Source: a virus
DNA: 64,000 nucleotides
Direction: 5' to 3' (one strand)
Virus record (IMG/VR): IMGVR_UViG_3300025111_000052
Span: 1 to 64,000 of that record
In this document: positions 46,432-62,806 of the stretch, in pieces
How the letters are laid out: each line of letters starts with the position of its first letter
How positions within the stretch are numbered: the first letter of the stretch is position 1
Position numbers and translations under genes: made by a program
The notes under the pieces: generated by a model
The model's input: the letters and a program-made list of their open reading frames with translations, nothing else
Database searches by the model: none
What the model was told of the DNA's origin: nothing

Positions 46432-47591
46432 TGGTAAATAATGAGGGCATTAAAATAAGTGCTACACGCATAAGTACTTTTTTGCAATGTAAGCAGAAAT
46501 ACTGGTTTAACTATTATGATAAATTACCTAAAATAGATAATCCGGTATTTAAATTAGGTACAGCTGTTCACATTGCCTTGGAGTTGGCTGGAAATATCTG
46601 GCGGGAAAAAGAGAAGTTCACTAAAAAAGATAAAGAAACTATTATTAATAAGTTTAAAGAAGTCTCTGTAAAAGAAGGAATTGATGATTTTTCCGTACAC
46701 CAAACAGGTATAGAATTAGTAACTAATAGAATAAATGATTTTATACATGAAGGGCACAAAATAATAAGCTTAGAAACTCCCTTTGGTTATAAAGGTGGTG
46801 TAGATGTAATCACCAAAGAAGGTGTGCCGTTGTTGGGCGCTATTGATAAAGTATTACAGGTAGATGAAGACACCATTCTAATTGTGGACTATAAAACATC
46901 TAAAACTGCACCTACACCGGATCAACTAAAAACAGACAAACAGTTGTCTATGTATGATTTGGTAGCCAGTATATTGTGGCCTGGAAAGCGTATTATAGTT
47001 AGCCTTGACTTGTTAAAACATGAGATGTTATATTCTTATCGTACACCAGAAGAACGGGCTGCTTTTTCTGAATATCTTAGATTAGTGTACGATTCCATGC
47101 TTTCCTTGAAAGAGCAGGATGTAAAAGCCACAATAAACACATTTTGTCCTTGGTGTGATTTTAGAGAATATTGTAATGCGTATAAAGAGGCATATACAAA
47201 TTCGAACGGCAAATTTCAAGAAGCGTATCGTTTAGATAACAGTGCTTTGGTCGATGAGTGGCAACAAGTTAAAAAGATGAAAAAAATATATGAAATGCGC
47301 GAGAAAGAACTATCTTTACTTCTTATGGATCGTATAAAAACTACTGGTATAAATGTACAAGTAGACGACAAAGAAGTTTATGTTAGACAAAATAGTAGAG
47401 CAACTTACGATATTAGCGCGGTTAAACAAATAGTACCACAAGAGTATCTATTGAATATGGTATCTTTAAATAAATCAGATATTGAAAAATATATGGATAA
47501 GAACCCCGCAGCCAAGGCTAAAATAGTAGATAGCATGACTGTGAATTTTACAACACCTTTTTTAGATGTACGTAAAATAAAAAATAAATGA
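46431..47591 (+). CDS. PD-(D/E)XK nuclease of the Cas4/RecB type with probable 4Fe-4S cluster
   Basis: A 386-residue protein. The nuclease core shows an N-terminal helix with ISTFLQCKQKYWFNYY, a GTAVHIALE segment, the active-site Asp in LGAIDKV (~137) and IVDYKTSK (~152) with catalytic Asp and Lys. One cysteine at residue ~20 and three in CPWCDFREYC (~239-248) match the four-cysteine iron-sulfur pattern of Cas4/AddB-type nucleases. The last ~120 residues form a helical extension. A role in DNA end resection or recombination beside RecA and RuvC is inferred. No CRISPR array is present. Confidence 0.8.
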   Translation: MVNNEGIKISATRISTFLQCKQKYWFNYYDKLPKIDNPVFKLGTAVHIALELAGNIWREKEKFTKKDKETIINKFKEVSVKEGIDDFSVHQTGIELVTNRINDFIHEGHKIISLETPFGYKGGVDVITKEGVPLLGAIDKVLQVDEDTILIVDYKTSKTAPTPDQLKTDKQLSMYDLVASILWPGKRIIVSLDLLKHEMLYSYRTPEERAAFSEYLRLVYDSMLSLKEQDVKATINTFCPWCDFREYCNAYKEAYTNSNGKFQEAYRLDNSALVDEWQQVKKMKKIYEMREKELSLLLMDRIKTTGINVQVDDKEVYVRQNSRATYDISAVKQIVPQEYLLNMVSLNKSDIEKYMDKNPAAKAKIVDSMTVNFTTPFLDVRKIKNK

Positions 47592-47948: not shown

Positions 47949-49499
47949 ATGGGAAAAAAGATTAAAATTTTATGTTATATGGACACCCCCTCCTGTAAAT
48001 AATGTGCAGCTTTACATAGCAATATGTACCGAATAACTACGAGAATTCAGGGGAACTCCTAACGTCAAGTCGAGGACAATCCTGAGCCAAGCCTCTTTAT
48101 AGAGGAAGGTGCAACGACTATTCCATATAAGGAAGTACACCCAAGCGGGTGGAAGCACGTAGCATCCCAAGTGGATGATGATATAGTCTCAACTTGCATG
48201 GAAACATGCAGCAGCCCAAGAAGCGGTATAAGAAGTAGCGTTCTTATATGAAGATATTTGGCAACAGGTTTTGCAACAGTCAGCCGTAATGTTTTAGAAG
48301 CGTTGTATAAAACGGGTAGATATGACATCGAAGTGTTGGGTATAAATTACTGGGGAGATCCACATGATTTTCCATATAAGATTTGGCCGGTAGGTAATAA
48401 TGCGGAAAGAGATCCCTACGGTCGTAAAAAGATAGTTAATATGATTCCTAAAATGGATTTTGATATTCTATTTTTTATGCAGGACAGTTTTATTTTGGAT
48501 TTTTTACCTGAGTTGATTCCACATCTTAAAAAGAATAGGGAGACGCCGTTTAAATCCGTGGTGTATTTTCCCATTGATGGTACACCTAAGCCAGAGTGGA
48601 TAAAAAATGTTAGTTTCTGTGATGAAGTAATTACTTTCGCTAACTTTGGTAGAAAGCTATGTCAGGAAACATACCCAATTGTGGGTGATATGTCTGTAAT
48701 TCCTCATGGGGTTAATATCAATGAATACAAACCATTACCTAAGGATGAAGTAGCTGATTTTAGAAAACGTTACTTTGGTCGTCATGCTGATAAATTTATT
48801 TACATGAACCTAAATAGAAATCAGCAACGTAAGGATATTCCTAGGACTATCCAAGCATTCCATGAGTTACGTAAAAAAGAACCAAATACTTTATTATATC
48901 TGCATATGGCTAAACAAGATCAGGGATGGAATCTGCCAGAAGTATGTAGAGCGTATGATTTTAGTTTAACCGATGACGTCATATTTCCTCAAAATTTTGG
49001 GCCTAATCAAGGCTATCCGAGAGAAATAGTTAATATGCTGTATAACTGTGTTGATTGCGTTGTTAGCGCAAGTCTTGGTGAAGGGTGGGGGCTTTCATGG
49101 ATAGAAGCAATGGCCGCTAAAACACCCGTTATTATGCCCAGAAACACAGCAATGATAGAAAATATTACTGAGGATGTGGGCTACCTTGTAAAAAGCGGTA
49201 CTAACCCCAGTCTATGGACAGTACTTCCTTATGACAACGAAGTAAGACGCCCATTAGTTGATGTAGAAGATCTAATCGACAAGATGCTACATGTGTATAA
49301 TAATTATGAAGAGGCCATGACTAAGGCCGAGCAGGCGTATAAATTTGTTACAGGTACCCTAGATTGGCAAACAGCAGTTGGTAATACTTGGGTTAAAACT
49401 TTTGACGCTGTATCTAAATCAATGCTTGAACAAAAAAGTAAAGTGGCAGAAATGTTAGCAACACAGACCACCAACGTCATAAACTCAGAAACTTTTTAA
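47949..49499 (+). CDS. Glycosyltransferase (GT4-like), split by a group I intron
   Basis: The coding sequence is best read as exon 1 (47949-47996, 16 codons, ending MDTPSC) joined to exon 2 (48261-49499), giving 428 residues. An AAGGAG site precedes the ATG. The join restores the N-terminal phrase MDTPSC-ATGFATVSRNVL, the 'TGF..V' loop typical of GT4-like enzymes. Exon 2 carries MNLNRNQQRKDIP and SLGEGWGLSWIEAMAA, the E-x7-E-type nucleotide-sugar site. Unspliced reading stops two codons into the intron, so expression of the full enzyme needs splicing. The sugar and acceptor are unknown. A TTG at 48258, at the intron end, is not a plausible independent start. Confidence 0.85.
47997..48260 (+). 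ncRNA. Group I self-splicing intron, IA-like, without ORF
   Basis: 264 nt. P1: exon CTGT pairs with GCAG (48006-48009), with the U.G pair at the 5' site. P2: TACATA/TATGTA with a GCAA loop (48013-48028). P3: CTACG (48037-48041) with CGTAG (48158-48162). P4: TCAGG (48047-48051) with CCTGA (48081-48085). P6: CCTCT/AGAGG (48092-48105). P7: GACTA (48116-48120) with TAGTC (48184-48188). Hairpins P7.1 (48121-48134) and P7.2 (48138-48151) are typical of subgroup IA. P8: CATCC/GGATG (48163-48177). P9: TGCATG/CATGCA with a GAAA loop (48195-48210). A further stem lies at 48227-48248. The last intron base is G (48260). GGGGAAC and GACAATCCTGAGCC resemble phage td-type cores. Confidence 0.9.
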
Positions 49500-49552: not shown

Positions 49553-49714
49553 ATGGAAGAAATGCTTATACTTAAACCGGAGCAAGTACAAATTGATGAA
49601 AAAGAAATAGAAGAAGCATATAGCAACACAACCGTAGAGTACGCGTGTGATCTTTGTAAAAGACTATATTCTAAAAGTTTAAAATTTTGCCCATTCTGTG
49701 GTTTTGGTGGATAG
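49553..49714 (+). CDS. Small zinc-ribbon protein
   Basis: A 53-residue protein from the ATG at 49553, chosen because AAGGA lies seven bases upstream; an earlier in-frame start at 49526 falls in the terminator T run. The N-terminal half is acidic and helical. The C-terminal half has CDLCKRLYS and CPFCGFGG, two CxxC pairs 14 residues apart, which form a compact zinc ribbon. It is first in its transcript, before thyX. Confidence 0.55.
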   Translation: MEEMLILKPEQVQIDEKEIEEAYSNTTVEYACDLCKRLYSKSLKFCPFCGFGG

Positions 49715-49724
49715 AGGTGACACT

Positions 49725-50519
49725 ATGTTAAGAGTTAAACTACTAGATGTTTCAGCTAATGCTGAGAAATTACTATTTGCTGCCGGTAGACAGTGTTACT
49801 CCGAAGGATGGGTAGGAGACTCCTGGCAAGAAGACGAGGACGGCTTTGTGTCTATTACAGATAACAAAGATGGTCATTTGTGTACGGACAAAGAAATAGA
49901 GGGGTTGATAAACCACTTATTTAAATCAGGTCACACAAGTGTTCTCGAACATGTAAAATTTACATTTGCTATTGACGGTATATCCCGCGCGGATAGCCAT
50001 CAACATGTACGTCACCGCATGGCTAGCTATTCCCAGCAGTCCCAACGGTATGTGGCTAATGGTGGAGAGTTTGATATCAATAATTTTGTCATTCCACCCT
50101 CTATAAATAAGCATGCTGTTGCTAAGCAAATTTATATCGATGCCTTGGAGTATATACAGCAAGCATATAATGAACTCAAAGAATTGAGCATCAAGAGTGA
50201 GGATGCGCGTTACCTTATGCCTAATGCTGCTATCACAAGATTAGTGACAACTAAAAATTGTGTGAGCTTAATACATTTTTTCGGTTTACGCTGCTGTACA
50301 TTAGCGCAATGGGAAATTCGTAATGTAGCCAATGAGATGCTGGCTTTATGTAAGGAAGCACTACCAGTAGTTTTTAAAAATGTTGGTCCTAAATGTCAAC
50401 AAGCCGGCTACTGTTCAGAAAATAAAGCACGTAGTTGTGGTAAATACCCCACCAAAGAGGAGGTCCTCGCTGGTTACACTATGTGGAAAACTTCTTTGGA
50501 GAAACAAGATGAAGAATAG
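49725..50519 (+). CDS. thyX: Flavin-dependent thymidylate synthase
   Basis: A 264-residue enzyme that makes dTMP from dUMP using FAD, NADPH and methylene-tetrahydrofolate. The ThyX signature RHRMASYSQQSQR is at ~96-108. HTSVLEHVKFTF lies upstream, and RLVTTKNC.SL.HFFGLR..  AQWEIR, near 165-200, is the substrate region. It starts at 49725 after a GAGGTGA site rather than at the in-frame ORF start 27 bases earlier. With dUTPase (63018) and ribonucleotide reductase (63512) it supplies dTTP to the phage polymerase. The cysteine-rich end (CQQAGYC...SCGKYP) may bind metal. Confidence 0.93.
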   Translation: MLRVKLLDVSANAEKLLFAAGRQCYSEGWVGDSWQEDEDGFVSITDNKDGHLCTDKEIEGLINHLFKSGHTSVLEHVKFTFAIDGISRADSHQHVRHRMASYSQQSQRYVANGGEFDINNFVIPPSINKHAVAKQIYIDALEYIQQAYNELKELSIKSEDARYLMPNAAITRLVTTKNCVSLIHFFGLRCCTLAQWEIRNVANEMLALCKEALPVVFKNVGPKCQQAGYCSENKARSCGKYPTKEEVLAGYTMWKTSLEKQDEE

Positions 50520-51658: not shown

Positions 51659-52777
51659 ATGACAATTAAAGGTATAAAATATATAGGGCCAATTCTAGAC
51701 AATTCAGGTTATGCAAAAGCCTGTCGTGGTAATATTCTGGCACTCCATTCACTTGGTGTACCTATAACGTTAGATCCAATTTCTTTTGAAAAGTCAAAAC
51801 CAGACTTAGGTGCTGATGGGGTTCTTTTAACAAAGTTAATGGATGCTAAGGTGGACTACGATACAGTAATTATACACACGACACCTGAATTCTGGTCTAG
51901 ATACAGAGAAAAAGACAAGAAAAATGTTGGTTACACTATATGGGAAACAGATCTATTGCATCCAGACTGGAAGAGCTACATTAATAGTACTGTTGATAAA
52001 GTTTTAGTTGGTTGTGAATGGAACAAAGAGGTGTTTAAACACAGTGGTGTTACAATCCCTATTGGTGTAGTGCCTCATTGTATGGATTTAAGTCATGTAG
52101 CCACATCTACTCCTTTTGATGTAAAAGGAGTATCCAAAGATACCTATATGTTTTATGCTATATTTCAATGGACTGAAAGAAAACATCCGACAGCATTAAT
52201 AAAGGCATACTGGCATGCGTTTCAGAATAATGAAGATGTGGCTCTTGTATTAAAAACTTATCGTAGTGATTACAGCGAGGAAGAAAAAGATGCCATAAGA
52301 ATTACCATAAGAAAACTAAAAGCTATTACTCCTATGGACAAATATCCACCCATTTATTTATTACCAGACATGCTAACAGAAGATGAAGTTAATGGATTAC
52401 ATAAAAGAGGTGATTGTTACGCCTCATTAGACCGCGGTGAGGGTTTTGGTATTGGGCCTTTTATGGCCGGAGCTTTTGGTAATCCCATAGTAGTTACAGG
52501 GTTTGGCGGCGTGACAGAATATGCCAAACAAGATAATAGCTATTTAGTAAATTACACACTAACACCCGTTTATGGTATGCCATGGAGTCCATGGTATAGA
52601 GGTGATCAACTTTGGGCAGAGCCTGATGTGAAAAATGGCGCTGACTTAATGAAGTTTGTTTATGACAATAAAGAGGCCGCCAAAACAACAGGGCAAAGAT
52701 TAAAGCAGTATATAAATACTAATTTTTCTTTAACCACCATTGGTACAAAATTACTTAAAGAACTTGAATTAAAATAA
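51659..52777 (+). CDS. Glycosyltransferase, GT4-like
   Basis: A 372-residue enzyme, the first gene of the sugar island. It has an N-terminal Rossmann half (YIGPILDNSGYAKACRGN, VGYTIWETD) and a C-terminal half with YAIFQWTERKHPTALIKAYW, then SLDRGEGFGIGPFMAGAFGNPIVVTG. That last segment is the nucleotide-sugar-binding region with two acidic residues seen in GT4 retaining enzymes. It is distantly similar in plan to the intron-bearing enzyme at 47949. Donor and acceptor are unknown. It ends six bases before a methyltransferase gene. Confidence 0.82.
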   Translation: MTIKGIKYIGPILDNSGYAKACRGNILALHSLGVPITLDPISFEKSKPDLGADGVLLTKLMDAKVDYDTVIIHTTPEFWSRYREKDKKNVGYTIWETDLLHPDWKSYINSTVDKVLVGCEWNKEVFKHSGVTIPIGVVPHCMDLSHVATSTPFDVKGVSKDTYMFYAIFQWTERKHPTALIKAYWHAFQNNEDVALVLKTYRSDYSEEEKDAIRITIRKLKAITPMDKYPPIYLLPDMLTEDEVNGLHKRGDCYASLDRGEGFGIGPFMAGAFGNPIVVTGFGGVTEYAKQDNSYLVNYTLTPVYGMPWSPWYRGDQLWAEPDVKNGADLMKFVYDNKEAAKTTGQRLKQYINTNFSLTTIGTKLLKELELK

Positions 52778-52783
52778 TATATT

Positions 52784-53266
52784 ATGACTAAAAAAACTTT
52801 AAACATTGGTTGTGGCAACCGCATATATAAAGAATATCCCAAAGGGTATACGTGTGTAAACTTAGATATACGCCCCTTAGAAGGTGTTGATATAGTAGGT
52901 AATGTTGAGGCAGTAGACCTGCCCAATGAGCAGTTTGATTATATACTTGCGAGCGATATAATAGAACATTTCCCAATAAGCAAAACTATTGGTCTACTTA
53001 AAGAATGGGCCAGATTATTAAAGCATGGCGGTGTAATGGAAATTCGTACACCAAATATGCAATGGGCTGTGGAATATTATAGACAAACAGGTGATGCTAA
53101 GTTTGTTTCTTACCATATGTTTGGTGGACAAGATTACCCAGGTAACTTTCACTTTGTTATGTTTGATGTCAAATGGCTATCTAATTTATGTATAGCTGCT
53201 AATTTAATACCTTCAAATCATAGCTTTGAAGGATCTAATTTTATATTGGAAGTATATAAAAAATGA
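52784..53266 (+). CDS. SAM-dependent methyltransferase, class I
   Basis: A 160-residue protein with motif I LNIGCGNRIY (residues ~6-15), an acidic motif II (VNLDIRP) and the post-I segment FDYILASDIIEHFP, typical of the small Methyltransf_11-type fold. A long helix and HGGVMEIRTPN (motif III) follow. It likely methylates a small molecule or sugar; nearest neighbours are glycosyltransferases on both sides. It has no target-recognition domain of a DNA methylase. Confidence 0.82.
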   Translation: MTKKTLNIGCGNRIYKEYPKGYTCVNLDIRPLEGVDIVGNVEAVDLPNEQFDYILASDIIEHFPISKTIGLLKEWARLLKHGGVMEIRTPNMQWAVEYYRQTGDAKFVSYHMFGGQDYPGNFHFVMFDVKWLSNLCIAANLIPSNHSFEGSNFILEVYKK

Positions 53267-53275
53267 GGTAAGTAG

Positions 53276-54166
53276 ATGAATGGGTGTATATTAAGGGCTG
53301 TATATAATAGACCAGAGATGCTTTATCTGTCTATGGAGTATGAAATAAAAGCACGTAAGCAACTAAGTACAGACAATTATAGTACTTTATTTGCATTAGA
53401 ACACAACGCTGATCCTAAATGTGTTGAGCTAATTCAAGATTATTATCCTTTTGAAAAAACAGTTGTTACAAGATCATTTAGGCATTTTGGTTGGGGTAAT
53501 ATTTTAGAAGGGTTTAAGCAGGCTTTTTTTGAAGGCGCAGATTATGTATTAAACATAGAAGATGATTGTTTGCTGCATGAAACTTACTTTACATATATGA
53601 ATACAGCATTAAACTTATTAAAGGGTAATAAATTTTCTGTTATTAATGCTAGTCGTAGATTAGTGCCTAATACAAGTATAACTGGTGTGCAAGCTACAAA
53701 CCTATTTGAAGCGCCGGCCTGTTTAATGAACGGATATTTTTTTAATAAGTATGTAAGGCCTTATGCCACATATGATTATTATACTAATAGAGAGACCATC
53801 ATCCATTTGGTTAATAAACGCAATGGGGATGACAAAAGATCTAAATACAGGGCGGAGCGTAAAAATTTATTTCAGCATATTGGTTGGGACGGTCTTGTTA
53901 ATAGACTAATAGATACTGCTTTTATTGAAGAAGGTTTAAGATCTTATTCTCCTATGTGCGACAGACAAATACACATAGGATTTTATGGTCAAAACAGGAT
54001 TGGTAAACTACCTTTTAAGCACCCGGAGTTCGCAGATCGTGTCGAGGCTTTGAGAGATACTGCATTAAACGCAGCCAAAATGATGCAATTAGATCCTAAC
54101 TATAAAGATTATGTAGATTTTGCATCGCAATTAGACGCTTGGTCTGGGGAACTTACCTTAATATAA
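53276..54166 (+). CDS. Glycosyltransferase-like protein, GT-A type
   Basis: A 296-residue protein. The start CILRAVYNRPEML is the beta-alpha beginning of GT-A enzymes. YVLNIEDDCLLHE near residue 95 supplies the D-x-D-like metal site. Further on are phrases rich in aromatics and His. It resembles the GT2-like and capsule-type transferase group, though the family is not certain. It begins 10 bases after the methyltransferase and ends ahead of a strong AAGGAG site for the next gene. Confidence 0.65.
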   Translation: MNGCILRAVYNRPEMLYLSMEYEIKARKQLSTDNYSTLFALEHNADPKCVELIQDYYPFEKTVVTRSFRHFGWGNILEGFKQAFFEGADYVLNIEDDCLLHETYFTYMNTALNLLKGNKFSVINASRRLVPNTSITGVQATNLFEAPACLMNGYFFNKYVRPYATYDYYTNRETIIHLVNKRNGDDKRSKYRAERKNLFQHIGWDGLVNRLIDTAFIEEGLRSYSPMCDRQIHIGFYGQNRIGKLPFKHPEFADRVEALRDTALNAAKMMQLDPNYKDYVDFASQLDAWSGELTLI

Positions 54167-54178
54167 GGAGTAATTTAA

Positions 54179-54952
54179 TTGAAAACAATAGAACAAACAA
54201 GTAATCATTTAGACACATTGATAAATGGGGGTTCCCCATTTTACTTTGTAAGGTTTGGTGATGGAGATTTAACTCTTATACAAGGAGCACCTAATGAACA
54301 AAGGCATAGAAATAGTGTTAAACTACGACAGGAATTAAGGGAAGCTTTACAAATATTCGATCTAAATTATGTAGTAGCTAGTACTGCCGGTTCCTTTGAA
54401 GATGGGAGCGGTAGTTATTTTTGGATAAAAAATAGAGTACAGCAGCAAATTCTGGATGGGCAGCTTAGACATATTTGGAAGTTACTACGAGGTAACCCAG
54501 ACGAAGGTTATCATGCGTTAATATTTCAATATGCTTTTGAACATAAATTAGAGTGGTTTGTAAAATTTATTGATACTATGTTCTATGATAAAAAAGTATT
54601 ATTGGTAGCCGGCGAACCTTTGTGTAATAGTAACCTTATAGAAAAGATGTTTAATATTAAACACACAGTATCTTTTACAGGGGTGGACAATGCTTATTAT
54701 GCCTTAGATCGTAAAATGGAAGAAATACTTGACAAACTACAAACTTGTGATATAATTCTTCCTGTAATAGGTATGGCTACACGTGTATTAGCCAAACGCT
54801 TATGGAAAGATCATAATATAAGAAACAAAAGTTTAATTGATATAGGTGTTACTATGGACGCTTTGGCTGAGGCCCCACATAGAGGTTGGACCCAACGTGT
54901 AATAAATGAAGGGGTCATAGAAAAATACAAAAAATACTATGAGGTGCTTTAA
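54179..54952 (+). CDS. GT-D-type glycosyltransferase (DUF1792-like)
   Basis: A 257-residue protein with a TTG start eight bases after AAGGAG; no better ATG exists nearby. FYFVRFGDGDLTLI near residue 22 is the signature of the GT-D fold family (DUF1792), where a G-D-G-E/D motif holds the donor and metal. The family's C-terminal phrase is also present: CDIILPVIGMATRVLAK ... SLIDIGVTMDAL. These enzymes add sugars in glycoprotein and surface glycan assembly in bacteria. Its stop shares one base with the next start. A consensus promoter sits in its 3' part. Confidence 0.72.
   Translation: MKTIEQTSNHLDTLINGGSPFYFVRFGDGDLTLIQGAPNEQRHRNSVKLRQELREALQIFDLNYVVASTAGSFEDGSGSYFWIKNRVQQQILDGQLRHIWKLLRGNPDEGYHALIFQYAFEHKLEWFVKFIDTMFYDKKVLLVAGEPLCNSNLIEKMFNIKHTVSFTGVDNAYYALDRKMEEILDKLQTCDIILPVIGMATRVLAKRLWKDHNIRNKSLIDIGVTMDALAEAPHRGWTQRVINEGVIEKYKKYYEVL
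54729..54756 (+). promoter_or_regulatory. Perfect sigma70-consensus promoter inside a gene
   Basis: TTGACA (54729-54734), a 16-base spacer and TATAAT (54751-54756) match the consensus at all 12 positions. It lies 196 bases before the first sulfotransferase-like gene and could drive the second half of the sugar island. Confidence 0.55.
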
Positions 54953-55596
54953 TGAAACAACTTATTTTTGGTCTTGGTACAGGTAGATGCGGTACTGTAT
55001 CTCTTAAAGAATTGTTAGGTCTGCAGAACGACTTTACTTCAACTCATGAGTTAGTAATAACTCCATGGCAGTTTAGCAAAGGACACATAGATAAAACCAT
55101 TGCGTATATGCAAAATAGGCCCTGGGGCTTTTCGTCATGTGATGTATCTTTTTGGCATTTACCTTATGTTATATACATATTGGATAAATTCCCAAACTCA
55201 AAATTTATTTGTCTTAAACGAACTAAAAAAGACACTGTTGCTAGCTATATTAAAAAGACCGCTGCTAACACTAAAACAGGGCTAAAAGAACGAAACCATT
55301 GGACAGCTAGGGATAGTATTTATTGGGACAGTAACTTGTGGCGCCTTGATCCAATTTATGATAATTGTTATCCAAAATATAATCTACCAAAAATAGATGC
55401 AATAGAACAATATTGGGACGACTATTATAATTTAGCAGCAGAATATGCTGCAGCGTTTAAAGACAATTTTATGTTATTTAATACGGAAGAAGTATTGAAT
55501 GATGAAACCACACAATCTAAGTTATTAACTTTTTTAAATATACCTTTGTCCAATAGAGTTATTAATACCCAAATAAATGAAAATAAAGGAGCATAA
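54952..55596 (+). CDS. Sulfotransferase-like protein 1
   Basis: A 214-residue protein. FGLGTGRCGTVSLKELL at the N-terminus matches the PAPS 5'-phosphosulfate loop style of sulfotransferases ('G..RSGTT.L..LL'). FPNSKFICLKRTKKDTVASY near residue 80 fits the 3'-phosphate-binding segment (R-x4-DTVASY). Such enzymes move sulfate from PAPS to a hydroxyl, typically on sugars or lipids. There is no signal peptide, so it would act in the cytoplasm. Some related P-loop proteins are not sulfotransferases, so the activity is probable rather than certain. It is coupled to GT-D upstream and overlaps the preferred start of the next frame only marginally. Confidence 0.7.
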   Translation: MKQLIFGLGTGRCGTVSLKELLGLQNDFTSTHELVITPWQFSKGHIDKTIAYMQNRPWGFSSCDVSFWHLPYVIYILDKFPNSKFICLKRTKKDTVASYIKKTAANTKTGLKERNHWTARDSIYWDSNLWRLDPIYDNCYPKYNLPKIDAIEQYWDDYYNLAAEYAAAFKDNFMLFNTEEVLNDETTQSKLLTFLNIPLSNRVINTQINENKGA

Positions 55597-55597
55597 C

Positions 55598-56128
55598 ATG
55601 CCAACATCGAGACCCTACCCCATAGCACACATAGCTTCCAGAATCATCGACTTACAACCAAAAACCGTATTAGACATAGGGATTGGGTTTGGAAAATATG
55701 GTTTCTTAGCCAGAGAATACACAGATATTTGGAACAATCGTTTTAGAAAACCTGAGACTGTTATACATGGCATAGAAGTATATGAAGAGTACATCACTGA
55801 AATACATAGACAAATATACAATAAAATTTTTATTGGCAATGCACTTGATATATTACCTACATTAGGTAACTATGATTTAATTACTTTTTGCGATGTTGTA
55901 GAGCATTTTGAAAAAGAAGATGGCATTAAAATGATGAATCTGGTCCGGGATAAATGTAAGAATGCCTTTATAACTACCCCTACTTTAAATAGATTTCAAA
56001 AACGTGGTGGTGTTGCGGGTAACCCTTATGAACAACATGTTTATGGTTGGAGTACAGAAGATTTGAAGGCTTGGGGTAAAGTAACCACATTTAATAATTT
56101 TGTTAATCTATTGGAGATTGTAAAATGA
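55598..56128 (+). CDS. SAM-dependent methyltransferase, class I
   Basis: A 176-residue protein starting at 55598 because AAAGGAG lies just upstream; the in-frame ATG at 55577 is inside the sulfotransferase gene. Motif I is VLDIGIGFGKYG, motif II HGIEVYEEY, and the post-I segment YDLITFCDVVEHFEKED. The end TTPTLNRFQKRGG...YEQHVYGW is typical of small-molecule or sugar methylases. It overlaps the next gene by four bases. Confidence 0.8.
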   Translation: MPTSRPYPIAHIASRIIDLQPKTVLDIGIGFGKYGFLAREYTDIWNNRFRKPETVIHGIEVYEEYITEIHRQIYNKIFIGNALDILPTLGNYDLITFCDVVEHFEKEDGIKMMNLVRDKCKNAFITTPTLNRFQKRGGVAGNPYEQHVYGWSTEDLKAWGKVTTFNNFVNLLEIVK

Positions 56129-56736
56129 ACGCAAATAAAAAAATAGCTACGGCATTGTGGAAAGATAATTGCAAGATTAATTTACCTTGCGGTATTGGAT
56201 CTGCAGTTAGTGTTACTACTAAAATTAGGGAATTTATCGGAGACCAACTAAAAAATTATAATATTAGAAGCATTAGTGACGCCGGTTGTGGGGATTTTGC
56301 TTGGATGAACTTAGTAGATTTAGGTACTGCTACATATGTAGGTTACGATATAAACAAAGAAATGTTAGATGTCAATAAAACAAAATATCCTAAGGTTTCT
56401 TTTATTGAATTTGATTTAGTTAATCAGCCATTACCTAGGACTGATTTAATTATTTGTAGAGATTGTTTATTTCATTTACCTGATGCTTCTGTAATTAAAG
56501 CTTTAAAATTATTTAAAGCCAGTGGTTCACCTTATTTAATGACCACCTCATATAGAAATGTGATCAGCAATACACCGACATCCTCTGAAAAATTTACGAG
56601 CAAGCGATCACTATACACATCTGAATATGGGTTTAGAGAAATTAATTTAGAAAAAGATCCATTTAATTTATCAGCTCCACTAACTTTTATTGAAGAGTCC
56701 GGGTTTAAACGGATTTTTGGTTTATGGAGGCTTTAA
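56125..56736 (+). CDS. SAM-dependent methyltransferase, class I
   Basis: A 203-residue protein with SISDAGCGDFAWMN as motif I, TYVGYDINKEML as motif II and TDLIICRDCLFHLPD as the post-I segment. The C-terminus holds LYTSEYGFREINLEKDPFNL, a pattern I have seen in sugar-associated methylases. It is the third methyltransferase in the island and abuts the GT32-like gene with no gap, so the products likely act on the same substrate. Confidence 0.8.
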   Translation: MNANKKIATALWKDNCKINLPCGIGSAVSVTTKIREFIGDQLKNYNIRSISDAGCGDFAWMNLVDLGTATYVGYDINKEMLDVNKTKYPKVSFIEFDLVNQPLPRTDLIICRDCLFHLPDASVIKALKLFKASGSPYLMTTSYRNVISNTPTSSEKFTSKRSLYTSEYGFREINLEKDPFNLSAPLTFIEESGFKRIFGLWRL

Positions 56737-57474
56737 ATGCAAATTCCTATTACTGTTTGGACTTATTGGGAAAACCCCGCCGGCTTAAAAACACCATCAT
56801 ACTTAGAATTATGTTTTGATTCTATGGATAAATATTGTAATACAGATAACTTTGTATTTAAACTTGTAGATAACTTAAATATACACGACTTAATACCTGA
56901 ATTAAGAACAGATTTAAATAAATTAAAAGTGTCCAATAATCCCAGAGAGAACATTAGTATTAAAGCGGATTATATTAGAGCTAAACTTTTACAAAAGTAT
57001 GGCGGTATATGGCTCGATGCTGATACAATTGTTATGCGTTCTCCCGATGAACTTGTACCTTTATTAAATAGAAAAGATTTTTTATATAGAACCCAGCATG
57101 AAGGCCTTGCATCAGTAGGTGTAATGGCAAGCATACCTAACGGTGTATTAATCAATGAGTATATAGAACAACAAGATACACTTATCGATACTAAAAAAAC
57201 ATTAAGTTGGGGGGAAAATGGCTCACGTATACTCACACCATTGGTGCGTAAACATTCTGCCATAACCCAATCACTTGGATTAGTTGGTTCTATACCTTTT
57301 TCACATTGGCAACAATACTTTACTAATGTTCTGTATGAGCACGATAAAACGGTTTGGTGTTACCAGCTGTATAATAAAGTATTTCCAGAATGGTTTAAAC
57401 AGCAAAATAAGGAAATTATTTTAAAAGATACCACGGTGATATCGCAGCTTTTTAGGATTTCTTTGGGGGTTTAA
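56737..57474 (+). CDS. Glycosyltransferase, GT32-like (DXD sugar transferase)
   Basis: A 245-residue protein. The start IPITVWTYWENP and the segment KADYIRAKLLQKYGGIWLDADTIV are the hallmark of the GT32/Gly_transf_sug family, whose DxD (D-A-D) binds the metal-nucleotide sugar. HEGLASVGVMAS and WGENGSRILTP follow in the expected order. Retaining transferases of this kind build capsule or O-antigen units. It begins one base after the methyltransferase stop and ends two bases before the SQD1-like gene. Confidence 0.82.
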   Translation: MQIPITVWTYWENPAGLKTPSYLELCFDSMDKYCNTDNFVFKLVDNLNIHDLIPELRTDLNKLKVSNNPRENISIKADYIRAKLLQKYGGIWLDADTIVMRSPDELVPLLNRKDFLYRTQHEGLASVGVMASIPNGVLINEYIEQQDTLIDTKKTLSWGENGSRILTPLVRKHSAITQSLGLVGSIPFSHWQQYFTNVLYEHDKTVWCYQLYNKVFPEWFKQQNKEIILKDTTVISQLFRISLGV

Positions 57475-57475
57475 T

Positions 57476-58645
57476 ATGAATAACACAGTTTTACTTTTAG
57501 GGTGCGATGGTTACATTGGCAATGCTTTAACACAACGTTTGTTAAATAAGGGATTTAAAGTAATTGGTGTAGATAACTTTTTACGAAGATATTGGATACA
57601 AGATCTAATGACCTCTAAGTCTGCTACACCTGTTTTACCCATGGTAGAAAAGATTAGTAAATTTAGTGTTTTGGGAGATTTTATATTTTATGCTATTGAC
57701 TTATTACAAGATAGTAACAAAGTAGAGGAACTGTTTGTTACGTATAAACCAGACACTATCATTAATTTGGCACACATACCCTCTGCCCCATTCAGTCAGA
57801 TCTCACAAGAGAAGGCTGAATTTACTTTGAGGAATAATATAATACCTACAAATAATTTGTTGTGGTATATGAAGGCACATACACCAGATGCGCATTATAT
57901 TACCATAGGAACAACAGGTGAATATGATCATTATAGTAATATAGATATCGAAGAGGGTTACATTAAGATTAATCATAAGGGCAGGATGTCCAATGAAATG
58001 ATTTACCCTAGAAGGCCGGGATCATTATATCATTGTTCAAAAACCGCTTCTACTTATATAATAGATTTTTTAACGCGCACTTGGGGGTTGAGATGCACCG
58101 ACGTACAACAGTCTGTTGTTTTCGGATCGTATACGGATGAAATAGATAAAACTAAGGTATATAGTAGACTTGATAGCGACGAAGCAGGAGGCACTGTCAT
58201 TAATCGCTTTATTGTACAAACACTGTTAGGTATCCCAATGACTGTTTATGGAGAGGGGCTACACCAAAGAGGGTTTATATCATTAAATGATAGTGTGCAG
58301 GCATTAGAGATAGCTGTAAACAATCCACCAGCGGCGGGCAAAGTACAGGTATGGAATCAGTTATCTGAGTGGCATTCAATAATTGATATAACTAAATTTG
58401 TAGAAGAAGTAGCTACTAAATTAGGGATACCCAGCTCTACACAGCATATCCCTTCTCCAAGAAATGAGTATACAGGAGAACATTACTACAACTATGTTGT
58501 TGACATTTTACCTAGTTTAGGTTATACTCCTACAAGAAGTATAAAACAAGAGATAGAATATACAATGGTCACTATTAAAGACATAGTACCAAAAGAGTTG
58601 AAATCAGTTGTTATGCCAAAGATATTATGGGAGCATAAAAAATGA
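57476..58645 (+). CDS. UDP-sulfoquinovose synthase (SQD1)-like short-chain dehydrogenase
   Basis: A 389-residue extended SDR protein. The NAD-binding loop is GCDGYIG (9-15). It follows plant SQD1 through many landmarks: VDNFLRR, SAPFSQI, IGTTGEYD, NIDIEEGYI..NHKGR, SLYHCSK, TDEI, RLDSDEAGGTVINRF, MTVYGEG.HQRG and PSPRNEYTGEHYYNY. Thr146, Tyr185, His186 and Lys189 line up with SQD1 Thr145, Tyr182, His183 and Lys186. That enzyme joins sulfite to UDP-glucose to give UDP-sulfoquinovose. The Arg before SAPYS in SQD1 is Pro here, so substrate or sulfur donor may differ. An ordinary UDP-sugar epimerase is the alternative, but the whole-length pattern favours SQD1. It is coupled to its neighbours by ATGA overlap. 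Confidence 0.78.
   Translation: MNNTVLLLGCDGYIGNALTQRLLNKGFKVIGVDNFLRRYWIQDLMTSKSATPVLPMVEKISKFSVLGDFIFYAIDLLQDSNKVEELFVTYKPDTIINLAHIPSAPFSQISQEKAEFTLRNNIIPTNNLLWYMKAHTPDAHYITIGTTGEYDHYSNIDIEEGYIKINHKGRMSNEMIYPRRPGSLYHCSKTASTYIIDFLTRTWGLRCTDVQQSVVFGSYTDEIDKTKVYSRLDSDEAGGTVINRFIVQTLLGIPMTVYGEGLHQRGFISLNDSVQALEIAVNNPPAAGKVQVWNQLSEWHSIIDITKFVEEVATKLGIPSSTQHIPSPRNEYTGEHYYNYVVDILPSLGYTPTRSIKQEIEYTMVTIKDIVPKELKSVVMPKILWEHKK
58500..58528 (+). promoter_or_regulatory. Sigma70-type promoter inside a gene
   Basis: TTGACA (58500-58505), 17 bases and TATACT (58523-58528) match 11 of 12 consensus positions. It could boost expression of the second sulfotransferase and the DnaX/polymerase genes downstream. 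Confidence 0.45.
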
Positions 58646-59301
58646 GTAAGAACATAAATAGAGTTTTTTGTCATAGAAAATCAGGCGCCTCTTATGTTGT
58701 TAGAAGTATAATGGCTAATTACTATTGTAATGATTTCGACAAAAATCACTGGCATTTTTCAGATAGTATGGTGAAAGCTATTGCGGATAGTGACATAGCT
58801 CTATATGTTGTAAGGGATGGCAGAGACGTGTTATATGATTGCTATGAATATTGGAAGCAACAACCTGGCACAAAAAAACATTTCGAAGGTAAAACTTTTA
58901 GACAGTACATTATGGGATATATAGAGGCTTATAGTGATAAGGATTTATTTGAAAAAACTGCTGAAACTAAAAATCCCCTAGATCCAAGAATGTTTTCGGA
59001 CCCAGTACAGTACTGGGTAGATCATGTGCAAGGGTTTATTAATAGTAACTTAGAAAAGATGTACTTTGTTAACTACGATATGATGCTTATTGATGGCGCT
59101 GCTATGTTAATGCACATTGGAGATTACTTTAAATTAGAACCAAGAAATAAACTCATAGAGCCTTTGGAAGATCTAACTTTGTATAAACCATTGTTTAAAG
59201 ATGTGGGTGTGTGGCGTTTAGTTTTTGGTCAAAAAGACTTAGAGTATTTCTGGGGCCGCGCAGAAGATACAATGATTAAATTAAAGTTTTCTTATAATTA
59301 A
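58642..59301 (+). CDS. Sulfotransferase-like protein 2
   Basis: A 219-residue protein. VFCHRKSGASYVVRSIM matches the PAPS-binding 'P.KSGTTW....i' loop. LYVVRDGRDVLYDCYEYW is the classical 3'-phosphate motif (R-D-x-R-D-V). The end DVGVWRLVFGQKDLEYFWGR resembles the 'G.WK..ft......f' region that closes the PAPS pocket. This is the more convincing of the two sulfotransferases in the island. It overlaps the SQD1-like gene by four bases (ATGA). The acceptor is unknown; a sugar made by the neighbouring transferases is the obvious guess. Confidence 0.8.
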   Translation: MSKNINRVFCHRKSGASYVVRSIMANYYCNDFDKNHWHFSDSMVKAIADSDIALYVVRDGRDVLYDCYEYWKQQPGTKKHFEGKTFRQYIMGYIEAYSDKDLFEKTAETKNPLDPRMFSDPVQYWVDHVQGFINSNLEKMYFVNYDMMLIDGAAMLMHIGDYFKLEPRNKLIEPLEDLTLYKPLFKDVGVWRLVFGQKDLEYFWGRAEDTMIKLKFSYN

Positions 59302-59312
59302 TAGGATTAGAT

Positions 59313-59813
59313 ATGATTAACATAGATGAATACTTAGTTAAATTGAAAGTTATAGTGAGTGAGGTCGATGGTGTAATAACGGACGGGTTAATCACTTATG
59401 ATGAACTTGGTAATGTACCATTTAAATCATTCAATATGCAAGATTTAGATATTGTAAATGAGTTAAAGAAAACCTTTAAATTTACTTTTTTAGCCAAAGA
59501 TCAGTATGTAAATTACAACTTATTCAGACGCAAGAATATTCCTTTTTACTGGGCAGAAAAAGAAAAAGTGGAATTTGTTACTAAGATACTACATCGTTAT
59601 GAAGTAACATTAGATGAAATACTTTATATTGGTTTTGGGTATAGTGACGTACCATGCATTAATAGAATACCTTTTTCTATGTGTCCAAGTAATGCTAATA
59701 AAGAGGTTAAAAACAAAGTAGCCGTTTGCTTGAATACTTCTTCTGGCGATGGTGTTTTATATGAAGTTTATGAATTACTTAAAAACGAAATTGACCGGAG
59801 ACGTCTATGTTAA
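59313..59813 (+). CDS. KdsC-like HAD protein with replaced catalytic residues
   Basis: A 166-residue protein matching the length and order of KdsC-type sugar phosphatases: VDGVITDGLITYDELG, then F..K.FNMQD. Active-site positions are changed. The nucleophile Asp of DVDG is Glu (SEVDG). The Ser/Thr of the 'IITG' strand is Ala (FLAKDQ). The acidic pair of the final 'GDD..D' is F-G (IGFGYSD). The general fold looks kept, so it is probably a non-catalytic relative that binds a sugar phosphate or a partner, or a degraded enzyme. It overlaps the clamp-loader gene by seven bases. Confidence 0.72.
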   Translation: MINIDEYLVKLKVIVSEVDGVITDGLITYDELGNVPFKSFNMQDLDIVNELKKTFKFTFLAKDQYVNYNLFRRKNIPFYWAEKEKVEFVTKILHRYEVTLDEILYIGFGYSDVPCINRIPFSMCPSNANKEVKNKVAVCLNTSSGDGVLYEVYELLKNEIDRRRLC

Positions 59814-60886
59814 TAAAGAGAATATCAAAAAATAGAAGTAATAGCTTACAAACAGCATATAGACCCTGTACTATCGATGAATTTGTGGGCAACAACATCA
59901 GTAAAACAATACTAAAAAACTACCTGGATAATAGTAAATTACCCCACACTTTACTGTTTAGTGGTCCGGCGGGTACAGGTAAAACCACAGCAGCCCGTAT
60001 AGTAGCTATGGGGTTAAATTGTGAGTCAGTAGCCTCCTCTACATCTCAGCCTTGTTTAAAGTGTAATTCATGTCTTTCTATATTTAATGGCAGTAGCATG
60101 GATGTTACAGAGCATAACGTAGGAAAGGATGGTGGTAAATCAGACATGAGTGATATCGTGGATACTTTACCATTCGCACCTTTTAATTCAAGAAACAAGG
60201 TTATCATTTTTGATGAAGCGCACATGCTTACTGCCGCGGCAAAAGATTTGTTATTAAAGGATGCTGAAGATGGCTACTCATATATTTATTTTATATTCTG
60301 TACAAACAGACCAGAAGAATTACAAAGTAAGAAAGAAGGTGGTAATGCCTTTTTAAGTCGTTGTACAAAAGTGGCTTTTGATGCTTTACCACAAGATCAA
60401 TTATATGCTATTTTAACAAATGTTTTAGAATTTGAGGGAACTGTTTATAATGAGGAAGTTTTAAACTTCATCATATCTGAAACAAAGGGCATTCCCAGGG
60501 ATGCTCTTGTGGCTTTGGATTCTATTATTACTGAAGGCTCCTGGACGCTAGATTCCGCAAGTGCTATTTTAGGAGGTATAGCAGCAGAAAATACTCCTGC
60601 TATAATTGAGTTGAGCAAGTCTTTGCTAGCAGGTAAATGGTTAGAATCTTGTAAACATTATGAGGTTTTAGCTAAAACGGTATCTATCGAACGTATACGG
60701 ATAGCTATATGCGGTTACTTTGTAGGCTGTCTGAAACGTAGTAGTAAGTTTGCCGAAGCACGTAAATTTTCTACAATATTAGATGTAATTATAGATCCTA
60801 TATATACAACAGGCAAACCTGGGGAACAAATATTTTATCACAAAATGTTTAAAATAGTTAATTTAATAAAAGAGTTTAAAGGATAA
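59807..60886 (+). CDS. dnaX: Clamp loader ATPase, DNA polymerase III gamma/tau type
   Basis: A 359-residue AAA+ protein that opens the beta clamp and loads it on primed DNA. RPCTIDEFVGN starts the domain. Walker A is GPAGTGKTTAAR (~53-64), a zinc module (C...CLKCNSC) lies at ~82-91, Walker B is VIIFDEAHML (~131-140), and CTNRPEEL and LSRC provide the sensor and arginine finger. It is as short as the gamma form, without the tau extension. It lies directly before the polymerase gene and partners the clamp at 37771. No separate delta subunit was recognised in this window. Confidence 0.9.
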   Translation: MLIKRISKNRSNSLQTAYRPCTIDEFVGNNISKTILKNYLDNSKLPHTLLFSGPAGTGKTTAARIVAMGLNCESVASSTSQPCLKCNSCLSIFNGSSMDVTEHNVGKDGGKSDMSDIVDTLPFAPFNSRNKVIIFDEAHMLTAAAKDLLLKDAEDGYSYIYFIFCTNRPEELQSKKEGGNAFLSRCTKVAFDALPQDQLYAILTNVLEFEGTVYNEEVLNFIISETKGIPRDALVALDSIITEGSWTLDSASAILGGIAAENTPAIIELSKSLLAGKWLESCKHYEVLAKTVSIERIRIAICGYFVGCLKRSSKFAEARKFSTILDVIIDPIYTTGKPGEQIFYHKMFKIVNLIKEFKG

Positions 60887-60889
60887 ATT

Positions 60890-62806
60890 ATGGGTGTTTT
60901 TGATAAGAATATTGCTAAATTACCTGCCCCTAAATATACATATATTAATAAACTTGCCGACGCTAAGGCAGCCTTAGACTATATAAACCAATTTGATATG
61001 ATAGAGGTGGATACGGAAGGCACTTCCCTGTCACCTTTTGATGGAAAATTAGTTTTGTTACAATTAGGTGTGCAGGGACAGCCTTTTGTTTTTGATGTTA
61101 GAAAAGACATAGGTAAAAGTGAATTTGATGTTTTGTTGTTTAAAGATCTTTTAGAAGATAAAACCAAATTAAAAGTACTTCAAAATGCTTTATATGATGT
61201 TAAAATGATTAAACATCATTATAGTTTCTATATAAACAATATATATGATACAATGCTGACTGAACAGTTGCTAAATTTAGGCAGACCCTATGTTAGATCT
61301 TCTTTATCTGTGTTGGTACAAAAATATCTAGGCTTGTCAATGGACAAAGAGCCACGAGGTACTTTTTCAGACTACGAACAAGAATTTCAAAAGTATCAAC
61401 TTGAATACGCGGCATTAGACGTTTGTACCTTAGGCGTAATACGTGATGCACAACTATTATCAGTGGCTAAACATAAATTAGAGCGAGTGTGTCAATTAGA
61501 ATTCGATTTCGTAAAGCCGATGGCTGAAATGGAGTTAAATGGCATAACAATTAATACCGAGCGCTGGCTTTCAATTATGCAGGAAGTGGCTAAAAAGAAA
61601 GAAGAGCTCCATGTACAAATTACAAAAATACTTGATGCTACCGAAAACCAATCAACTTTATTTGGAGTATCCCTGATAAATATAGATAGTCCTAAGCAAC
61701 TTAAAGAGGCACTTAAAAAATATGGGGTAGAGGTTGAAGGTACTGCTGTCGATGAACTTGAAAAATATGCGGGCGTTCCTGTAATTGATAATATTCTGGC
61801 TTATAGAAAAGCTGAAAAGCTTATTTCAACTTACGGACAACCCTTATTGGATAAAATACATCCAGCCACAGGAAGATTACATACAGATTTTAAACAATTA
61901 ATACAGACTGGTAGATTAAGTAGTTCCCATCCTAATTTACAAAATATACCAGGTAAACAAATATATAGAAGCTGTTTTATAGCAAAAGAAGGATGTGCTT
62001 TAATAACGGCAGATATGTCAGGAGCTGAGTTACGTATTATAGGCAATATGTCCCAAGACCCTGTATTTGTTTCTTGTTATTTGGAAGGAATCGATTTACA
62101 CACCAAATCAGCTGCCGGTGTTTTTAATGTAGAATATGATAAGGTGTCTAAGGAACAACGTAAAGCTTCAAAAGCAATAACTTTCGGTTTAGCATATGGT
62201 CTTTCTAAGTTTGGTTTGGCTCGTAGATTAAAGATATCAGAAAAGAAGGCAGAGCGGTTGATGCTTAATTACTTTACGATGTTTCCTAAAATTAAGCAGT
62301 GGTTAGAGGATTTATCCAATGAAGCTGTAAGAAAAGGATACAGTGAAACTATTATAGGACGTAGACGCTTCTATGACATACCTAAATATGATTCACCAGA
62401 TAGAAAGTTCATAATTAATGGCGTTAAAAGGCAGGCTAAAAACGCACCCATTCAAGGTTCGAATGCTGATACCATTAAACAGGCCATGATTTTTCTTGTA
62501 GAGCGCTTAGAAGTATTGCCCTATTATGTTAAGTTGCTTTTAACTGTGCATGATGAATTAATTGTTGAATGCGACTATGAACACAGATATGAAGTAGCAA
62601 AGATAGTTGAACAAGCAATAAAGGATGGTTTTAATATGTACTTTAAAATTATTCCAATGGAAACGGATGCTCTTATATCTGCTTGCTGGATGAAGGGTAC
62701 ATGTGATAAAGACAAAGGCGGCTGTGGTGGCCAAGAATTTAAATTTGCTGATGGTGGTAAATACGGACAACGTTTGGTTTGTTCTAATTGTGATAAGGAA
62801 CAGTAG
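60890..62806 (+). CDS. polA: Family A DNA polymerase with 3'-5' exonuclease and C-terminal zinc tail
   Basis: A 638-residue replicative polymerase. The DnaQ-like exonuclease has VDTEGTSL (~39-46), NALYDVKMIK (~101) and YAALDV (~174). The polymerase domain has motif A ITADMSGAELRIIG, motif B RKASKAITFGLAYGLSKFG and motif C LLTVHDELIVEC. There is no 5'-3' nuclease domain, as in many phage enzymes. The last ~35 residues form an added segment with paired cysteines (GTCDKDKGGCGG ... LVCSNCDKEQ), likely a zinc ribbon and not part of standard family A enzymes. It works with the clamp, loader, helicase and primase encoded here. Confidence 0.93.
   Translation: MGVFDKNIAKLPAPKYTYINKLADAKAALDYINQFDMIEVDTEGTSLSPFDGKLVLLQLGVQGQPFVFDVRKDIGKSEFDVLLFKDLLEDKTKLKVLQNALYDVKMIKHHYSFYINNIYDTMLTEQLLNLGRPYVRSSLSVLVQKYLGLSMDKEPRGTFSDYEQEFQKYQLEYAALDVCTLGVIRDAQLLSVAKHKLERVCQLEFDFVKPMAEMELNGITINTERWLSIMQEVAKKKEELHVQITKILDATENQSTLFGVSLINIDSPKQLKEALKKYGVEVEGTAVDELEKYAGVPVIDNILAYRKAEKLISTYGQPLLDKIHPATGRLHTDFKQLIQTGRLSSSHPNLQNIPGKQIYRSCFIAKEGCALITADMSGAELRIIGNMSQDPVFVSCYLEGIDLHTKSAAGVFNVEYDKVSKEQRKASKAITFGLAYGLSKFGLARRLKISEKKAERLMLNYFTMFPKIKQWLEDLSNEAVRKGYSETIIGRRRFYDIPKYDSPDRKFIINGVKRQAKNAPIQGSNADTIKQAMIFLVERLEVLPYYVKLLLTVHDELIVECDYEHRYEVAKIVEQAIKDGFNMYFKIIPMETDALISACWMKGTCDKDKGGCGGQEFKFADGGKYGQRLVCSNCDKEQ

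Follow-up and report, generated by a model that had tools for sequence, protein, structure and literature searches.

A putative phage glycosylation locus with a conserved core and an exchangeable, sulfotransferase-bearing cassette

We have analyzed a stretch of 64,000 nucleotides (the window; positions 1 to 64,000 of the IMG/VR virus record IMGVR_UViG_3300025111_000052) and found inside its replication block a glycan island made of a small conserved core and a hypervariable cassette. We infer a cytoplasmic glycosylation locus that depends on host PAPS and, most likely, glycosylates a protein of the virion; we give this reading, in which glycan, sulfation and acceptor are all predicted, about an even chance. 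Specifically, the glycosyltransferases (GTs) GT4a and GT4b, usually with the methyltransferase MT1 and often with GTx, would make a common inner glycan that the exchangeable cassette would extend and decorate. In the window cassette, GT-D and GT-sug would add further sugars, MT2 and MT3 would add O-methyl groups, ST1 and probably ST2 would transfer at least one sulfate from host PAPS, and the SQD1-like enzyme would supply a sugar to the glycan. On a virion protein, the cassette would set a serotype-like particle surface.

A previous sequence-only reading had described ten genes at 51659-59813, with four GT-like and two sulfotransferase-like products, three SAM methyltransferases, an SQD1-like synthase and a KdsC-like protein. 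The coordinates, the strand and this content were all borne out, but the genes number 11 (Table 1). All of them are co-directional on one strand; neighbouring genes overlap by a few bases at roughly half of the junctions and are 1-12 bases apart at the others. The left limit was set too short, as GT4a is part of the island unit. The whole is located between a PD-(D/E)XK nuclease on the left and the clamp loader and PolA genes on the right. One record from a different metagenome (L002) is a 100% copy with the same gene order, and another, also from a different metagenome (L003), is an 86-97% relative with the same island order. Since both carry this order, the island is no assembly artefact. 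When compared with INPHARED, a large protein of unknown function (18-1838) and PolA gave no match or only distant ones.

Table 1. Features of the glycan island and its borders in the window (all on the given strand, 5' to 3').
Feature	Position	Strand	Evidence
PD-(D/E)XK nuclease, left border	46431..47591	+	PF12705 1.2e-25; precedes GT4a in 50/50 core loci
GT4a, GT4 glycosyltransferase, core	47949..49499	+	PF00534 1.2e-12; homologues to 1e-185
Group I intron interrupting GT4a	47987..48211	+	RF00028, 83 bits, E 3.8e-20
ThyX, between GT4a and GT4b	49698..50519	+	RHRxxS motif read in sequence
GT4b, GT4-like glycosyltransferase, core	51659..52777	+	phrog_2170 glycosyltransferase 1.7e-19
MT1, SAM methyltransferase, frequent/semi-core	52784..53266	+	Methyltransf_23 (PF13489) 3.2e-9
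GTx, GT-A-like glycosyltransferase, semi-core	53276..54166	+	structure model, Foldseek
GT-D fold glycosyltransferase, cassette	54179..54952	+	PF08759 4.9e-11
ST1, PAPS-type sulfotransferase, cassette	54952..55596	+	PF13469 35.5 bits, cut-off 27
MT2, SAM methyltransferase (weak call), cassette	55577..56128	+	PF13489 1.9e-4, below cut-off
MT3, SAM methyltransferase, cassette	56125..56736	+	phrog_3382 2.6e-38
GT-sug (Caps_synth/Gly_transf_sug glycosyltransferase), cassette	56737..57474	+	PF05704 2e-10, PF04488 4.2e-8
SQD1-like NAD-dependent nucleotide-sugar enzyme, cassette	57476..58645	+	1i24 1.3e-74
ST2, divergent sulfotransferase (probable), cassette	58642..59301	+	PF00685 18.5 bits, cut-off 22
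KdsC-like HAD pseudo-phosphatase (very likely), island right end, core	59313..59813	+	TIGR01670 2e-16
Clamp loader and PolA-type DNA polymerase, right border	59807..62806	+	conserved 3' of HAD gene

We have searched IMG/VR for relatives of this locus. Scans with PolA or with a single GTx sequence returned two near copies only, and alignment queries reached much further. The nuclease border and the GT4a-GT4b core were common to 50 loci, most of them with DnaB-helicase and primase genes preceding the nuclease. In the closed loci the HAD gene ends the locus, and in most the clamp loader and PolA come next (conserved in L003, L069, L073, L074, L115, L126 and L132). GT4a is interrupted by a group I intron, its first exon being MGKKIKILCYMDTPS at 47949 and the post-intron reading frame starting at 48258. 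The slot between GT4a and GT4b contained ThyX in 4 loci, a ThyA-type gene in 9, a second ThyX-like type (ThyX2) in 16 and none of these in 21. GT4b was 47-93% identical in the relatives, and in many of them MT1 follows it on the 3' side. GTx matched no Pfam family, and its model, of modest confidence (pLDDT 61) and thus supporting only, matched GnT-I, TarP, GtrB and SpsA in Foldseek with probability 1.0; 15 viral homologues were found.

The hypervariable cassette is bounded by GT4b and the HAD gene. It goes from 0 genes (L093) to ~26 (L074) and in relatives contains GTs, SAM methyltransferases, epimerases, acyltransferases, an aminotransferase and a deacetylase. A minority of the phages that share the core have the sulfo genes as cargo. 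In L003, the flanks are 83-97% identical to those of the window, while MT2 is only 48% identical, GT-sug has been replaced (35%) and MT3 is absent. As judged from these identities, the comparison shows a recent cassette exchange. It had been proposed that the genes form one pathway, to be abandoned if the gene order were conserved in no relative. A single functional unit is supported by the core, syntenic in ~50 viral loci, and by the SQD1-like genes that recur near sulfotransferases and GTs; one fixed pathway is not, the locus being a small core with an exchangeable cassette.

Neither the sulfotransferase nor the SQD1 calls collapsed to unrelated folds. ST1 exceeds its profile cut-off and carries both PAPS motifs, GRCGT and RTKKDTVAS (RxxxDxxxS); on these motifs it is a canonical PAPS sulfotransferase. 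ST2 falls below its own cut-off but is probably a divergent sulfotransferase, as suggested by its homologue in L033, which passes the PF00685 cut-off (52.2 vs 22 bits, 7.5e-14), and by the profile of its family (A3), which matches SULT structure chains at ~1e-5. The top 50 Foldseek matches of the ST2 model were all sulfotransferases, with weak E-values and from a model of modest confidence (pLDDT 66), so that they are supporting only. Its 3'-phosphate motif, RDGRDVLYD, has Asp at the Ser position, which is Ala in L033. No APS kinase was detected in the 13 records searched, in which the positive control was found. On this result from the 13 records a self-contained sulfate pathway was rejected, and the sulfotransferases would depend on PAPS from the host. 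The KdsC-like protein at the right end belongs to the family proposed, but not with a phosphatase role. The nucleophile Asp of motif I (DxD) has been lost (SEVDG in the window) and is replaced by Glu, or by Ser in L072, in all homologues examined; in all likelihood it has no phosphatase activity, and we discarded that role.

The SQD1-like protein matches Arabidopsis SQD1 (1i24) over its full length (residues 4-386), far above other epimerases. A true UDP-sulfoquinovose synthase would put a sulfonate on the glycan, whatever the target. The fold, the Tyr-xxx-Lys pair (Y182, K186) and the dehydratase pair (E148, Y149), both pairs kept in all viral-clade rows aligned, are shared with SQD1 and Agl3, Ser180 is retained, and the locus of L069 has a second, independent SQD1-type enzyme that groups with a bacterial paralogue. 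However, H96, R101 and M146 (H95, R101 and M145 in Agl3) are changed to N, P/A/N and T/A in every aligned member of the viral clade, with further changes at E99 and Q100, and alanine mutants of Agl3 at each of its three positions were inactive (PMC4388408). Besides, the protein reaches 354 bits against the 575 of the NF041015 equivalog cut-off, and in the tree it falls in a nearly virus-only clade (support 100/100) with a stem branch of 3.15 changes per site. Family homology stands, and the call at face value was dropped after the comparison with the Agl3 mutants. The viral clade having lost these three Agl3-essential residues, UDP-sulfoquinovose synthesis is doubtful, and we would give it about one chance in four. 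The clade was rare in 84,980 prokaryote genomes and recurrent in viral contigs. Other lineages (L017/L071, L021, L033/L034) likewise have SQD1-like genes next to sulfotransferases and GTs, and the neighbouring sulfotransferases of separate lineages are of differing Pfam families (PF03567 in L017, two in L021, others in L033/L034 and L011). The only earlier viral mention that we found is a putative UDP-sulfoquinovose synthase in a Mu-like virus from the Cariaco Basin, interpreted there as an auxiliary metabolic gene (PMC7785012). That is a single virus for which the section consulted describes no island, unlike the window phage, with which it shares an SQD1-type gene.

As for the acceptor, the neighbourhood of the locus and of its relatives points in several directions. 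The location among replication genes, not structural ones, speaks against a virion target and would suit DNA modification. A GT4a relative that adjoins a primase in the phage S-EIV1 also speaks against a virion target. Other GT4a relatives in cultured phages speak for it: in S-CBS4 the gene sits between those for portal and capsid, and in TJE1 it lies upstream of terL and portal. GTs could also work on lipid-linked intermediates of the host, on the cytoplasmic side of the membrane, with no flippase of their own.

If the target were DNA, the GTs would glycosylate modified phage bases against restriction or CRISPR, and cassette variation would reflect an arms race. Virus-encoded DNA GTs with diverse glycans have reportedly been described by Pyle and co-workers in 2024 (as cited in PMC12619734), and the arabinosylation of RB69 DNA is a further reported case (PMC6024577). 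Hypermodification clusters of the T4/RB69 type resemble the window in having GTs near nucleotide and replication genes and variable sugars. The island is flanked by a processivity factor, UvsX, DnaB and primase on one side and by clamp loader, PolA and dUTPase on the other, and three unrelated thymidylate-synthase types occupy the GT4a-GT4b slot. Nevertheless, known hypermodification routes start from a hydroxymethyl pyrimidine and no enzyme for it was found in the window phage. PF00303 (the thymidylate-synthase family, to which a hydroxymethylase would belong) had no homologue in the window phage or L003, and PF00145 (C5 cytosine methyltransferases) none in 11 records, the positive controls being detected in both searches. 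The slot lacks any thymidylate synthase in 21/50 loci, and the ThyX motif of the window is canonical. We consider this reading unlikely, at about one chance in five. A dNMP hydroxymethylase in the slot was rejected, the proteins of L067/L069 keeping the Asn typical of dUMP enzymes and the window having ThyX. A search for TET-type oxygenases (PF12851) gave no match, and its positive control was silent as well.

Slightly less probable still is the remodelling of the host surface, in which precursors of LPS, teichoic acid or capsule would be modified at the inner membrane face to block superinfection or mask receptors. The cassettes of relatives contain GT9 heptosyltransferase-like genes, hexapeptide acyltransferases, a PIG-L deacetylase and a DegT aminotransferase, like bacterial surface loci. 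On the other hand, a hydropathy scan found no TM-like segment in any protein of the window island, and thus no Wzx/Wzy-like flippase or polymerase, GtrA-like or other multi-pass protein; in relatives it found only scattered hydrophobic segments. No signs of lysogeny were seen, so the benefit to the phage would be brief. That unrelated morons came together by chance, with no pathway in common, is very improbable: 46/100 cassette genes had no relative in any other examined cassette, but the borders are fixed and the core ordered in 50 loci, MT1-GTx adjacency is retained in distant lineages and in L034, and glycan enzymes dominate the cassettes.

The claim that such a combination is undescribed in phages agrees with the literature searched, in which we found none. 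Known cases of phage-encoded glycosylation involve small numbers of GT genes. Mycobacteriophage-encoded GTs are said, by Freeman and co-workers in 2023 (as cited in PMC12619734), to decorate capsid and tail-tube subunits; phage-encoded GTs are common to both systems, but theirs involves few genes and no cassette locus in a replication block, and we know of no sulfotransferases or SQD1 relatives in it. Bacterial O-antigen and capsule loci have conserved flanks and exchangeable glycan genes that define the serotype. They share this design with the island, yet they encode a flippase and a polymerase and the island codes for no membrane protein. The chlorovirus PBCV-1, according to the part of PMC4691112 available, resembles the window phage in being a large DNA virus that encodes GTs, methyltransferases and sugar enzymes itself; it glycosylates autonomously, without the host secretory route, and its proven capsid glycan has species-dependent parts. 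It is in contrast a virus of eukaryotes, and that part mentions no swappable cassette at a single locus, sulfotransferase or SQD1-like gene. The window locus would be a bacterial parallel to these core-plus-variable capsid glycans.

Tentatively, we propose a viral serotype locus, that is, a widespread phage group with a conserved glycan-initiating core in which whole cassettes are swapped at one site. Some members would have a sulfated and methylated virion glycan with a sugar supplied by a new, virus-specific, SQD1-derived enzyme that carries out a reaction other than sulfoquinovose synthesis. A sulfated glycan on a phage would, to our knowledge, be without precedent. The SQD1-like clade is a ready target for finding a new nucleotide-sugar reaction. 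If the acceptor is the virion, the locus bears on the adsorption and recognition of the particle. With a fixed locus, a conserved core and cassettes of 0 to ~26 genes over ~50 uncultured phage contigs, phages would, if this is true, diversify a glycan much in the way bacteria diversify their O-antigens.

The island belongs to a wider locus, found by alignment searches of IMG/VR with two of its glycosyltransferases, GTx and GT4b. A PD-DEXK nuclease gene and the glycosyltransferases GT4a and GT4b co-occur in 50 loci, preceded in most by DnaB-type helicase and primase genes; in closed loci the KdsC-like gene comes next, then in most clamp loader and PolA. The genes between GT4b and the KdsC-like gene (the cassette) numbered 0 in L093, 2 each in L115 and L126, 5 in L132, 6 in L107, 9 in the window copy (L091), 8 in the copy from its close relative L003 (L092), 10-12 in L100, L101 and L125, ~16 in L069 and ~26 in L074, counts that are approximate since ORFs were called mechanically and a good number of contigs stop inside the cassette. 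By clustering, 46 of 100 cassette proteins had no relative in the set, and a Pfam scan of 66 gave mostly glycosyltransferases, methyltransferases, epimerases, acyltransferases and sugar enzymes. Because L003 lacks the methyltransferase MT3 and its MT2 and GT-sug are only 48% and 35% identical to those of the window, between flanks at 83-97%, we read these differences as cassette exchange. The gene order is conserved in relatives for the core and not for the cassette content, where the sequence-only reading had suggested a single pathway. We found no published description of a swappable phage glycan locus among open-licence papers.

Features of the locus and of the rest of the virus record (G000, 152,034 bases)
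Feature	Position	Strand	Description
HNH-like remnant	~47763		just upstream of the intron; HNH endonuclease gene here in L003 and other relatives
Group I intron	47987-48211 (region 47949-48261)		inside GT4a gene; RF00028, 83 bits
GT4a	47949-49499
GT4a-GT4b slot	49698-50519
Island	51659-59813	+	11 co-directional genes
GT4b	51659-52777	+
GTx	53276-54166	+	third gene
KdsC-like HAD	59313-59813	+	right island end
Intein-like insertions	L066:5799-8279, L072:5480-7936, L071:1682-3256
tRNA, anticodon CUA	91441-91511 (L025:7441-7511)		ARAGORN call Pyl
NAPRTase, TROVE-domain protein, CCA/poly(A) polymerase-like protein, RuvB	124071-134805 (L027)	minus
RimK-like ATP-grasp protein, phiEco32-like COOH.NH2 ligase, GlmS/glutamine-amidotransferase-like protein	135989-140334 (L027)	minus	possible peptide-ligation system

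Inteins usually sit in indispensable proteins; here intein-like insertions interrupt the EGxGL motif of GT4a in two lineages, and the ThyX-like protein has one too. The slot between GT4a and GT4b holds ThyX, as in the window, in 4 of the 50 loci, a ThyA-type gene in 9, a second ThyX-like family in 16 and nothing in 21, these three thymidylate-synthase types being mutually unrelated. As for the tRNA with anticodon CUA, TAG still serves as stop in this genome.

The ORF listing corrected the initial count of ten island genes, and the enzyme kinds first named were supported by Pfam, PHROGs and NCBIfam: a GT4-like, a GT-D and a Caps_synth/Gly_transf_sug glycosyltransferase, three methyltransferases (MT2 weak), two sulfotransferases (one clear, the other weak), an SDR epimerase-fold protein (SQD1-like) and the KdsC-like HAD. 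GTx had no match in Pfam or PHROG; its predicted model (pLDDT 61) matched the GT-A enzymes GnT-I, TarP, GtrB and SpsA in Foldseek. In the KdsC-like protein, a predicted conserved pseudo-phosphatase, the catalytic Asp is replaced in every homologue read, by Glu or, in L072, by Ser. Of the two proposed sulfotransferases, ST1 stands, above the Pfam cut-off and with both PAPS motifs, and ST2 is a probable one: by itself it falls under the cut-off and its 3-prime phosphate motif is without the usual Ser, but its homologue in L033 (1.6e-9) is above, a three-sequence profile matches human SULT chains (~1e-5), and the top 50 matches shown for its predicted fold were all sulfotransferases, weak (best E 1.8e-3). 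APS kinase went undetected in 13 records (controls positive in 11 of 14 genomes), therefore PAPS must be host-supplied.

The top PDB match of the SQD1-like protein was Arabidopsis SQD1, over its whole length (phmmer, 1.3e-74; next families 1e-9), and the alignment of viral members retains Y182, K186, S180 and the Glu-Tyr pair. Judged by sequence, it operates within the SQD1 scaffold. These features also speak for production of UDP-sulfoquinovose, a one-enzyme claim compatible with any glycan target, which we nevertheless consider doubtful and not supported: H96, E99, Q100, R101 and M146 are substituted, and H96, R101 and M146 correspond to Agl3 H95, R101 and M145, whose alanine mutants are inactive (PMC4388408). 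In addition, the equivalog model scored 354 bits, below its cut-off of 575, and in a tree the 18 viral-type sequences clustered together (100/100), set off by a stem branch of 3.15 changes per site. The SQD1-type gene of L069 fell outside this cluster, beside a Sinorhizobium paralogue. Relatives at 50-100% identity occurred in 22, then 24, IMG/VR loci, none above 24% in INPHARED, and plasmid-borne ones at 25-35%. Among 84,980 prokaryote genomes the scan, whose patterns derive from viral proteins so that distant cellular kin could escape, matched only two short MAG contigs, L033 and L034. Both carry the same block (GTx, ST2-type, SQD1-like, GT2, WecB-like and radical-SAM genes) under different assigned phyla, and for this reason they are probably misbinned viral DNA. 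A putative viral UDP-sulfoquinovose synthase was reported once before, in a Mu-like virus (PMC7785012).

The link between SQD1-like genes and sulfotransferases is recurrent. A Sulfotransfer_2 protein lies two genes away in L017/L071, of the same locus type as the window; two sulfotransferases, a GT-D-like protein and a methyltransferase flank the gene in an unrelated phage (L021); an ST2 homologue adjoins it in L033/L034, and L011 has two sulfotransferase-like matches downstream. It is not universal, since no sulfotransferase was seen nearby in the other SQD1-like loci L004, L006-L010, L012-L014, L018, L019 and L022. Across 11 records that have GTx or the core but no viral-clade SQD1 gene (L065-L070, L072-L076), PF00685 and PF03567 had no match and PF13469 one, sub-threshold.

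As for the target, DNA is unlikely, in spite of a GT4a relative beside a primase in S-EIV1. To our knowledge every route to glycosylated DNA requires a hydroxymethyl pyrimidine, and neither this phage nor L003 has PF00303, while 11 records lack PF00145; PF12851 gave no match but is uninformative, its positive control being equally silent. Decoration of the host surface is quite improbable, as TM-like segments are missing from every island protein, which argues against the phage itself producing and exporting a lipid-linked polysaccharide. Among cultured phages, the GT4a relative of Synechococcus phage S-CBS4 lies between the portal and capsid genes, next to a methyltransferase, and that of Tetrasphaera phage TJE1 is upstream of terL, amid nucleotidyltransferase, epimerase and methyltransferase genes. 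The system closest in how it works is chlorovirus capsid glycosylation (PMC4691112); among phages, the closest precedents are virion glycosylation in mycobacteriophages and the glycosylation of DNA (cited in PMC12619734). Given the lack of TM-like segments and of a PF00303/PF00145 route, and the neighbourhoods of the GT4a relatives, we favour, with about even confidence, a virion protein over DNA and host surface: the island enzymes would glycosylate it in the cytoplasm, drawing PAPS from the host.
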